Source of the DNA: Paeniglutamicibacter sp. Y32M11
Lineage (GTDB): Bacteria; Actinomycetota; Actinomycetes; Actinomycetales; Micrococcaceae
DNA: 64,000 nucleotides
Direction of reading: 5' to 3'
Assembly (NCBI RefSeq): GCF_019285735.1
Contig: NZ_CP079107.1
Span: 2,976,001 to 3,040,000, forward strand
Of the stretch, positions 12,269-15,127 are shown one piece after another. The stretch's first letter is position 1. Each line of letters opens with the position of its first letter. Under the pieces are notes generated by a model that was given only the letters and a program-made list of their open reading frames with translations, did no database searches and had not been told where the DNA came from. The position numbers and the translations under genes are program-made.

Positions 12269-13381
12269 CTAGCGTGCGACGCGCACCGCTGCGGCCAGGG
12301 TGTCCAGCAAGTCAGAGCTCGTTTCCCAGTTCATGCATGCATCGGTGACCGACTGGCCGTACCGCAACCCACCGAGCACATCAGCGCCCACTGCCACGGC
12401 GTCGGGATCGTGCTTCTGCGCGCCCGCCACAAGGAAACTTTCAGCCATGATCCCGGCAATGCTCTGATCGCCAGCGGCAATGCGAGCCGCCAGTTCGCCG
12501 ATAACCTCGGCCTGGCGAAGCTCTGATTTTCCGGAGTTCGCGTGGCTTGCATCGACGATCAGACGCGGATTCATACCGGATCCGGCCATGGCCGCGGACG
12601 CCGCAGCAACCTGCTCGGCACCGTAGTTTGGCCCATCCGCTCCCCCACGCAGAATCAAGTGGGAGTCCTGGTTTCCGGTGGTCGTCACGATCGCGGTGCG
12701 ACCGTCATCACTAATACCAAGGAACGATTGCGGGGCACTAGCGGCCTGGCAGGCGTCGATGGCGACCTGAACCGATCCGTCGGTGCCGTTCTTGAAGCCC
12801 ACCGGCATCGAAAGACCCGAGACCAACTGCCGATGCGTTTGGCTTTCGGTGGTGCGGGCCCCGATGGCCCCCCAACTCATCACATCGGCGAGGTACTGAG
12901 CGCTCAACGGTTCGAGGAACTCGGTGGCCAACGGTAGCCCCAAATTGCTGGCGGCGAGGGTGAATTCGCGCGCAATTCGTAAGCCGGCGGCCATGTCGTG
13001 GCTACCGTCAAGGTGCGGATCATTAACCAGACCCTTCCAGCCCACCGTGGTACGTGGCTTTTCGAAGTAACTTCGCATGACCACCAGCAACTCGCCCTCA
13101 TGCGTCTTGGCAGCAGCAGCGAGCTTCGCAGCGTATTCAAGCCCCGCTACGGGGTCATGAATAGAGCATGGGCCGATGATTACCAGCAGGCGCTCGTCAA
13201 GGCCTGAGAGCACCGCACGGACCTCCTGGCGGGCTCTCATGATGCGGTAGCCCTGCGCATCCCCCACCGGGAGTTCACCTATCAGTTCTGCCGGGGTCGG
13301 CAGCTCGGTAATGGAGGTGATGCGCTCGTTGGTGTTGAAGCGCGGTTGTTCTTTTACGGCGGGGCTGATGTTGCTGATCAT
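12269..13381 (-). CDS. aroG: 3-deoxy-7-phosphoheptulonate synthase, class I (AroG type)
   Basis: DAHP synthase condenses phosphoenolpyruvate and erythrose 4-phosphate, the first step of the shikimate pathway. The 370-residue protein shows the class I motifs: the GPCSIHDP phosphate-binding region near residue 70, MRSYFEKPRTTVGWKG near 105, and the metal-binding His and Glu regions in the C-terminal half (DASHANSGK). The N-terminal 60 residues correspond to the regulatory extension of AroF/G/H enzymes. Upstream lies a leader encoding a short peptide with Trp, Tyr, Tyr and Phe codons (13553-13612), which points to attenuation by aromatic amino acids. The start codon has GAAAGG nine bases upstream. 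Confidence 0.93.
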   Translation of the reverse strand: MISNISPAVKEQPRFNTNERITSITELPTPAELIGELPVGDAQGYRIMRARQEVRAVLSGLDERLLVIIGPCSIHDPVAGLEYAAKLAAAAKTHEGELLVVMRSYFEKPRTTVGWKGLVNDPHLDGSHDMAAGLRIAREFTLAASNLGLPLATEFLEPLSAQYLADVMSWGAIGARTTESQTHRQLVSGLSMPVGFKNGTDGSVQVAIDACQAASAPQSFLGISDDGRTAIVTTTGNQDSHLILRGGADGPNYGAEQVAAASAAMAGSGMNPRLIVDASHANSGKSELRQAEVIGELAARIAAGDQSIAGIMAESFLVAGAQKHDPDAVAVGADVLGGLRYGQSVTDACMNWETSSDLLDTLAAAVRVAR

Positions 13382-13439
13382 GATCGGTGGCCTTTCGGTG
13401 AGACCCCGCGATTCGACGGGGGCCGAGTAGTTTATTTGC

Positions 13440-13552
13440 GGCCCCGTTGATTTCTCGCTGCAATTCCTTCAGGGCCGCTATCGTGAAAATAGCGAAGGGC
13501 CTGCAAGCAATAGCTTGCGGCCCTTGTCGACTCTGAAGGTGGGTATGCGAAT
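13440..13552 (-). promoter_or_regulatory. alternative RNA hairpins of the DAHP synthase leader
   Basis: Between the leader peptide and aroG the minus-strand RNA can form: a pairing of GGTATGCG (13599-13592, inside the Trp-Tyr-Ala codons) with CGCATACC (13549-13542) just after the leader stop; a terminator-like hairpin at 13525-13495 (AAGGGCC GCAAGC with GCTTGC A GGCCCTT); a hairpin at 13494-13476 (CGCTAT/ATAGCG); and a GGGGCCG/CGGCCCC hairpin close to the aroG start. CCTTCAG just after the 1:2 pairing can alternatively pair with CTGAAGG beyond both hairpins, giving mutually exclusive folds. Confidence 0.7.
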
Positions 13553-13612
13553 TTACCGCGTCCTAGGCTCCTCCAGAGCCGACACAAAATACGCATACCA
13601 ACGATTAGTCAT
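13553..13612 (-). CDS. leader peptide of the DAHP synthase gene
   Basis: This 19-codon ORF encodes MTNRWYAYFVSALEEPRTR, with Trp5, Tyr6, Tyr8 and Phe9 clustered, all end products of the pathway that aroG starts. It ends 171 bases before aroG and is followed by alternative hairpins, which is the layout of a ribosome-mediated attenuator. The ATG lies 7 nt after a -10-like TATGTT, so translation probably begins at the transcript 5' end without a ribosome binding site. A leader peptide before a DAHP synthase gene has been described in Corynebacterium glutamicum; this one fits the same principle. Confidence 0.8.
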   Translation of the reverse strand: MTNRWYAYFVSALEEPRTR

Positions 13613-13648
13613 GGGTTGAAACATACAACCGTTAAGAACGATTGACAA
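13613..13648 (-). promoter_or_regulatory. promoter of the DAHP synthase leader
   Basis: A -35 element TTGTCA (13648-13643) and a -10 element TATGTT (13625-13620) are separated by exactly 17 bases. The start codon of the leader peptide follows the -10 hexamer by 7 bases, so the predicted transcription start coincides with the A of its ATG. Confidence 0.7.
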
Positions 13649-13694
13649 ATAATGCCCGCCCGCGCGGGCTTCACAATTCGTCACTGTTACACAA

Positions 13695-13746
13695 AAGCGG
13701 GTTGGAAGGAGCTGAACATCGCTGTTCCACTCTTCCCAACCCGCTT
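13695..13746 (-). terminator. terminator downstream of gdhA
   Basis: The base of the hairpin pairs the 14-base stretch at 13695-13708 with 13732-13746 (one bulged base), and a TTTTG run follows on the minus strand. It lies 35 bases past the gdhA stop codon and before the promoter of the aroG leader. Confidence 0.7.
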
Positions 13747-13780
13747 CAAAGGTCAGTCGTTTTTAGCTGGTGCTACCGAC

Positions 13781-15127
<1,347 letters not shown>

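Follow-up and report, generated by a model that had tools for sequence, protein, structure and literature searches.

A leader ORF with aromatic codons and a conserved set of RNA pairings upstream of aroG in Paeniglutamicibacter: a probable, widespread variant of ribosome-mediated attenuation

The aroG locus and its leader

The window analysed here is a 64,000-nucleotide stretch of Paeniglutamicibacter sp. Y32M11 (NZ_CP079107.1, positions 2,976,001 to 3,040,000), and all positions below are counted from its first letter. Its minus strand carries aroG, which encodes a type I DAHP synthase (Table 1), the single match to that enzyme at E ≤ 0.001 in the 4.17 Mb genome. DAHP synthase governs the flux towards all aromatic amino acids and many actinobacterial antibiotics. 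A glutamate dehydrogenase gene (13781-15124), on the same strand, sits ahead of aroG. Behind that gene stand U-tailed hairpins at 13654-13669 and at about 13700-13770, both on the minus strand and the second recognized by eye, and a transcript proper to aroG is therefore probable.

A preliminary description of this DNA, made from the letters alone, had proposed a promoter with a 17-base spacer, followed after 7 bases by the ATG of a 19-codon ORF bearing W5, Y6, Y8 and F9 as candidate sensing codons, and further on a terminator-like hairpin. All of these elements are present. The promoter is the one promoter-like site found in 13350-13780, against 0.2 expected from shuffles, and it apparently puts the transcription start at or beside the leader ATG. 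The ORF is followed by a structured leader of about 170 bases; the fold of 13612-13382 has a z of -5.45, and none of 200 shuffles was equally stable.

Table 1. The aroG leader region, listed in the direction of transcription (positions in the window).
Feature	Positions	Strand	Basis or remark
Promoter	13620..13648	-	predicted; -35 TTGTCA 13648-13643, 17-nt spacer, -10 TATGTT 13625-13620
Putatively leaderless leader ORF	13553..13612	-	ATG at 13612, MTNRWYAYFVSALEEPRTR plus stop, 19 codons
Segment 1a, GGTATGCG	13592..13599	-	within the Trp/Tyr/Ala codons; pairs with 2a
Segment 1, TCGGCTCTGGAGG	13570..13582	-	3' half of leader ORF; pairs with segment 2
Segment 2a, CGCATACC	13542..13549	-	just past the leader stop; partner of 1a
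Segment 2, CCTTCAGAGTCGA	13527..13539	-	switch strand; pairs with segment 1 or segment 3
Hairpin T1	13495..13525	-	terminator-like; covariation; script finds T1 in 132/133 leaders
U-rich tail of T1, CGCTATTTTC	13485..13494	-	sequence; weakly U-rich
Segment 3, GCGGCCCTGAAGG	13466..13478	-	alternative pairing with segment 2 or with segment 4
Segment 4, CGGGGCCGC	13438..13446	-	can pair with segment 3 or with the ribosome-binding region
Shine-Dalgarno-like GAAAGG of aroG	13391..13396	-	sequence reading
aroG, type I DAHP synthase, controlled gene	12269..13381	-	TIGR00034, 453.7 bits (cut-off 173.2)

Distribution of the leader

The observation is far stronger than this single locus suggests. All 15 genomes of the window's genus carry the leader, with a peptide MTN/QRWYAYFVSALE and small changes thereafter; in P. 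antarcticus (L002) the leader, its identity and its spacing are the same as in genome L093 of the genus. Type I aroG (E ≤ 1e-60) was found in 80 of 197 Micrococcaceae genomes, and the leader lies ahead of it in all 80 (79 by pattern; the last, L119, by eye and with the RNA model). That model, R1, is a covariance model running from segment 1 to T1 and built from 31 sequences, all of them type I aroG leaders. In a sample of the class, 67 of 345 genomes have type I aroG; all 67 upstream regions were examined, and 46 contain the leader (38 by pattern, 6 by eye, 2 by RNA model). Four of these 46, the YFWF-type leaders of L223, L227, L228 and L229, were found by eye and are weakly supported, with an R1 score of 16.5 bits (E 0.014) for L223, a partial match of 10.7 bits for L227, and no match up to E 1 for L228 and L229. 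No leader was found in 21 of the 67, and 19 of those 21 belong to one family, f23, to which we return below.

Among 80 named loci, 33 carry the leader (32 by pattern, L011 by RNA model), including Arthrobacter, Sinomonas, Dietzia, Mycobacterium and Nocardiopsis. The 47 loci at which the pattern found none are mostly from other phyla; actinobacterial loci among them are Nocardiopsis ansamitocini (L017), Thermobifida fusca (L025) and the MAGs L045, L048 and L078, and L017 and L025 also have no R1 match. In family f10 (probably Mycobacteriaceae) the gene is present in 127 of 151 genomes, and an aromatic ORF with a -10-like site stood at all 28 loci examined there. Relatives of the leader RNA, as judged by sequence comparison, are widespread in actinobacteria.

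The search pattern required two aromatic residues near the core, without specifying Phe. Its first version missed the Micrococcaceae because it had been built on mycobacterial spacing, and widening it raised the yield from 52 to 151 of 229 loci. Left out of the counts were L172 (no aroG start found), L119 (missed by the pattern) and identical sequences. The 150 pattern rows comprised 136 distinct sequences, of which 133 entered the helix tests after removal of three with implausible start distances. Tests were run on three groups: the window's genus (n = 15), Micrococcaceae-type leaders (n = 69) and other leaders (n = 49). The second group was set by core sequence and holds 67 Micrococcaceae or named relatives plus L164 and L167 of other families.

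A predicted leaderless start

The motif TAnnnT lies 6-8 nt ahead of an ATG or GTG in all 136 distinct leaders, against 3.2% in shuffles. The gap between motif and start is 6 bases at 51 sites, 7 at 81 and 8 at 5 (137 sites, one sequence having two). The start codon had first been picked with a less strict form of this motif; each of the 136 sequences has exactly one in-frame start with a site at 5-8 nt. ATG opens 90 of these ORFs and GTG 46, and no Shine-Dalgarno-like motif occurs in the 12 bases before any of the 136. Such a spacing between -10 and start is typical of leaderless actinobacterial transcripts, and the comparison supports a transcription start at the leader ATG.

Aromatic codons and the amino acid they may report

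Phenylalanine stands three codons ahead of the core alanine in every one of the 69 distinct pattern-found peptides (150/150 rows); tyrosine is present in 69/69 and tryptophan in 55/69. Some leaders outside the pattern place Phe four codons ahead instead. The distance from the Phe codon to the helix formed by segments 1 and 2 is 3-5 bases in leaders checked by eye. The order of the aromatic residues differs between lineages, being WY.YF in Micrococcaceae, YW.F in Mycobacterium and Dietzia, and Y.YF in a family that is probably Streptomyces; WY..F also occurs. In 73 distinct ORFs, TTT accounts for 71 of 75 Phe codons and TAT for 106 of 109 Tyr codons, against 6/409 and 5/275 in aroG of the same loci (for some loci, the first part of aroG only). 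The leaders thus favour synonymous codons that are shunned in their genes, perhaps so that they are read slowly or so that the stretch stays unpaired.

What precedes aroG is therefore a short ORF with codons for end products of the pathway, upstream of a biosynthetic gene and kept in relatives, as in leader-peptide attenuation. We regard a ribosome-sensing role of the leader as very probable. It might be argued that the RNA binds a ligand or a protein and that the ORF codons are kept only for base pairing: both segment 1 and segment 1a combine coding with pairing, and the GC-rich core is nearly constant. Such a reading is improbable, given that aromatic residues persist across lineages despite their changed order, always together with the leaderless signature and the unusual UUU and UAU codons, and that no Rfam family matches at the curated threshold. 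At the curated gathering score, Rfam returned only a tRNA in the window and one tRNA in six related loci. A permissive search added four sub-threshold matches, taken as chance; the best was the CPEB3 ribozyme on the plus strand (21.3 of 35 bits), and ALIL on the leader strand reached 15.4 of 50 bits.

The preliminary description had further supposed that the leader senses several aromatic amino acids together. This is unproven: the invariant residue is Phe, and the C. glutamicum leader AroR, an apparent relative discussed below, precedes a gene, aroF, that responds to Phe and not to Tyr, as stated in the accessible text of a review (PMC11802643). Taken together, the fixed Phe codon and the report on aroF point to Phe as the main signal, which we consider rather likely.

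Alternative pairings between the leader ORF and downstream RNA

The strongest and most conserved pairing, overlooked in the preliminary description, joins segments 1 and 2 over 13 positions. Across the 133 leaders this helix 1:2 spans 9-15 ungapped positions (118 without mismatch, 15 with one) and is better than at least 95% of shuffles in 133/133. In an alignment of the 69 Micrococcaceae-type sequences 98.9% of cells are paired and 1 of 13 pairs has changed on both sides; in 46 sequences taken across lineages the figures are 92.1% and 7 of 13. The latter alignment holds 86 double-changed cells against a shuffled mean of 31, a value that none of 500 shuffles reached, and sliding one strand along the other lowers pairing to 32-52%.

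The covariation of helix 1:2 also bears on whether the ORF might simply encode a functional small protein, with the RNA pairings incidental. The peptide is nearly identical throughout the genus, which is what such a protein would show, but past the core it varies between genera, and in one genome it is frameshifted with the RNA kept; we find this explanation scarcely credible. The frameshifted leader (L119:316-435, minus strand) has one extra base after the Phe codon and before segment 1, which alters the end of the peptide (MTNRWYAYFSLCSGGARV), and its RNA is intact, scoring 96.5 bits with the RNA model. It is a natural experiment that separates peptide from RNA.

The pairing that the preliminary description did report, a perfect complementarity between GGTATGCG inside the codons and CGCATACC beyond the stop, is real (three bases separate the leader stop from CGCATACC) but less widely conserved, the principal helix being that of the ORF's 3' half with 13539-13527. 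The 1a:2a duplex beats at least 95% of shuffles in 15/15 genus leaders, 65/69 of the Micrococcaceae type and 14/49 others. When partners were swapped between leaders, own and foreign partners were equal in the Micrococcaceae-type group (p 0.96), where 1a hardly varies, and own partners were better elsewhere (p 0.0096); these and all later swap-test p-values are optimistic, since they ignore relatedness among the sequences. The strands of 1a:2a and 1:2 cross, and we think of the two as alternatives rather than as a pseudoknot.

Segment 2 has a further partner beyond T1. Helix 2:3 is paired in 95.0% of cells, against 30-58% when slid, and no pair in it has changed on both sides, which would follow if pairing with strand 1 also constrains strand 2. 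When segment 2 is paired with the RNA beyond T1, the duplex outdoes at least 95% of shuffles in 15/15 genus leaders, 63/69 of the Micrococcaceae type and 30/49 others; only in the Micrococcaceae-type group is it better than with swapped partners (p 0.002; genus p 0.33, others p 0.11). Helix 3:4, evaluated in the 69 Micrococcaceae-type sequences, an alignment that does not include the window's genus, has 85.5% of cells paired and 4 of 7 pairs changed on both sides. One of five measures in the 69-sequence alignment, further pair types, was not clearly above shuffles (53/500).

Since 1:2 and 2:3 share one strand, they are mutually exclusive helices that involve the ORF, an arrangement characteristic of attenuation. 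Comparison supports helices 1:2, 2:3 and 3:4 as well as T1; we infer which way the switch works and what it finally acts on. The proposal of a leaderless leader peptide within an aromatic-codon attenuator thus gains support, with W/Y/F codons and pairings kept in the relatives within Micrococcaceae, where their conservation had been named as a check.

Hairpin T1 and transcription

Hairpin T1 lies between segments 2 and 3. In the alignment of the 69 Micrococcaceae-type sequences 96.7% of its cells are paired, and both sides have changed in 6 of its 10 pairs. This strong covariation, together with the U-containing tails that follow the hairpin and attain stronger tracts of U5-U6 in one other family, would suit classical transcription attenuation, in which T1 is an intrinsic terminator and stalling allows readthrough by something beyond the simple pairings, for example ribosome-polymerase coupling. 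The C. glutamicum aroR leader, moreover, is mostly described as transcription attenuation in the accessible parts of its literature, with one paper speaking of a translational regulatory leader peptide. We nevertheless hold this explanation to be unlikely, if a serious competitor. In transcripts modelled to 10 nt past T1, which end before segment 3, the mean probability of T1 was 0.97-0.999 across four ribosome positions, whether the leader was free or segment 1 blocked, and the tail averages only 3.2-3.9 T in 8 nt.

No modelled ribosome position lowered T1 formation in these transcripts, and simple terminator/antiterminator switching at T1 was rejected: a hairpin that forms at every position implies that competition for T1 before the polymerase leaves is not the switch. 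A pairing of the T1 5' arm with RNA after T1 was likewise set aside, being no better than shuffles outside the Micrococcaceae (p 0.84) and marginal in the Micrococcaceae-type group (p 0.04). In the window's genus this arm can pair with later RNA (-18.3 against a shuffled -12.0 kcal/mol; equal means against swapped partners, p 0.028), yet that RNA is made after T1.

A possible output at the ribosome-binding site

The preliminary description had suggested that the 3' arm of T1 could also cover the aroG ribosome-binding site. In the window, GGCCCTTCG on the 3' side of T1 can indeed pair with CGAAAGGCC at that site in 8 of 9 duplex positions, and the pairing beats shuffles in all three groups. Against swapped partners it fares unevenly: Micrococcaceae-type leaders show no advantage for their own partner (-8.5 kcal/mol, swapped -8.9), any advantage in the genus is unclear (p 0.13), and other leaders show a slight one (p 0.027). 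When the upstream RNA as a whole is paired with the ribosome-binding region, own partners do better than swapped ones, with energies of -14.8 and -13.6 kcal/mol in Micrococcaceae-type leaders, -15.6 and -13.4 in the others, and -16.4 and -15.2 in the genus (p 0.06); a second cut gave p 0.076, 3e-6 and 0.06 for the same groups. This pairing beats 95% of shuffles in 18/69, 16/49 and 0/15 leaders, respectively. The pairing of segment 4 with the ribosome-binding region is more weakly supported than helix 3:4.

In the folding models, which covered four ribosome positions and gave mixed results, the ribosome-binding region is cheaper to open when segment 1 is free than when it is blocked (6.3/8.2, 8.0/8.8 and 8.4/9.6 kcal/mol in the three groups). 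A ribosome placed at Phe makes opening easier than a blocked segment 1 in Micrococcaceae-type leaders (7.2/8.8 kcal/mol) and not elsewhere (9.7/9.6) or in the genus (9.6/8.2). An output at the aroG ribosome-binding site is moderately supported elsewhere and weakly in the window's genus, and whether translation initiation is the main output we regard as an even question.

Relatives of the leader RNA before another gene

R1 matches one place in the genome of the window. Among the 345 genomes of the class, 57 have a match at E ≤ 0.01, under the stricter filters of Infernal, with which weak matches are lost; 42 of these genomes have it at type I aroG by coordinates, 13 belong to f23 and 2 appear to be chance. 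Matches in G376 and G401 and the second one in G394, which by eye lie beside tRNA-like sequence, were rejected as chance-like, and two antisense partial matches were disregarded.

The 13 f23 genomes with a match have no type I aroG at E ≤ 1e-60, and no leader was found upstream of the gene in any of the 19 sampled f23 genomes that do have it. Peptides could be read for 10 of the 13 f23 leaders, all with Phe four codons before the alanine (valine in one), and by eye the helix is extended by about three bases upstream. A downstream protein was found at 9 of 10 loci and scanned at 8: a chorismate mutase domain scored above cut-off in 8/8 and a DAHP synthase domain in 7/8, and in the four tested against NCBI models the DAHP synthase scores fell far below the cut-offs. 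From these scans, the f23 RNA precedes a different, divergent fusion of a DAHP synthase-like domain and chorismate mutase. The eight proteins (L288-L299) are about 300-400 aa long, with the chorismate mutase C-terminal, and are possibly a regulatory or altered enzyme.

Proposed mechanism and significance

The reading we lean towards is a ribosome-sensed attenuator of aroG in which segments 1 to 4 relay the state of the leader ribosome to the ribosome-binding region. A transcription start at the leader ATG implies that a 70S ribosome would load directly on the 5' end of the transcript. How it advances through the aromatic codons, and the conserved Phe UUU in particular, would then report how far the matching tRNA is charged. 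Were the ribosome to wait at Phe, segment 1 just ahead of it could pair with segment 2, leaving segment 3 free for segment 4 and the aroG ribosome-binding region open. With no wait, the ribosome would run through segment 1, helix 2:3 would form, and segment 4 could cover the ribosome-binding region. T1 would form in both states and act as a pause or as a leaky terminator. A ribosome stalled at Phe may also reach over the start of segment 1, in which case the logic would be the opposite, and geometry alone does not decide between the two.

More tentatively, we propose that 1:2, 2:3, 3:4 and 4:ribosome-binding site form an ancient actinobacterial relay, set by Phe and carried across an ever-forming hairpin to aroG translation, and that the module has been reused before non-orthologous genes of the pathway. 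If this were true, one regulatory RNA, unmatched at Rfam curated thresholds, would set DAHP synthase expression across much of the class; it would offer an evolutionary series for the leaderless ribosome as a sensor and a clean test both of which aromatic amino acid is read and of transcriptional versus translational output. The leader would also be a control point useful in strains that make aromatic compounds.

Comparison with known systems

We conclude that the leader and structured RNA before aroG probably represent a widespread variant of ribosome-mediated attenuation. In the trp and pheA attenuators of E. coli, the position of the ribosome on the control codons picks between alternative helices, the control codons lie within segment 1, and the output is a terminator with a U-run. 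Here, in contrast, the codons immediately precede segment 1, the transcript apparently begins at the leader start codon, and a terminator-like hairpin separates segment 2 from segment 3.

The closest known case is in C. glutamicum, where Neshat et al. in 2014 reportedly described an aroR leader upstream of aroF. The accessible text of PMC4046766 gives the AroR leader as containing Phe-Tyr-Phe and preceding the DAHP synthase gene aroF, and that of the review cited above states that Phe limitation raises transcription of the aroF operon (PMC11802643). Two members of a small-genome genus in f10, L238 and L250, which we infer to be corynebacteria, carry WRFYF leaders with the same RNA and match R1 (26.0 bits, E 5.7e-5, and 32.4 bits, E 1.4e-6, respectively). 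On this ground AroR is very probably a member of the leader family, an apparent relative of the aroG leaders by way of L238 and L250. AroR shares with them an aromatic peptide, Phe-Tyr-Phe, ahead of a DAHP synthase gene; the leaders described here differ in having other aromatic clusters (WY.YF in the window), and the pairing chain and wide distribution are absent from the accessible descriptions of AroR. The openly accessible literature on aroG and DAHP synthase leaders, a scope that leaves subscription papers mostly outside, yielded no description beyond C. glutamicum aroR, and a search of the literature for leader-peptide attenuation of aroG in Mycobacterium found nothing.

Other actinobacterial leaders offer partial parallels. 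Leaderless polycysteine short-ORF attenuators of mycobacteria were reportedly described by Canestrari et al. in 2020, and the accessible literature on these ORFs mentions translation attenuation for cysteine genes. They are likewise leaderless short ORFs devoted to one amino acid, with another amino acid and other genes. The actinobacterial LEU element, which lies ahead of leuA (Seliverstov et al., 2005; PMC1262725), resembles the present RNA, in the accessible text, by its leader ORF, alternative RNA structures and link to the Shine-Dalgarno region, and differs by its leucine codons and by a base stem made of the leucine codon run and the Shine-Dalgarno box. The accessible text of that survey of actinobacterial amino acid leaders contains no mention of aroG or aroF, and a survey of Streptomyces lividans lists, in its accessible part, eight leader peptides of which Trp is the only aromatic one (PMC8079986). 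What was already known is thus ribosome-mediated attenuation as a kind, plus one relative, AroR; what appears to be new is the breadth of the family, the fixed placement of Phe together with the use of codons that the genes avoid, a chain of pairings built around a hairpin that always forms, and the reuse before a non-orthologous gene.
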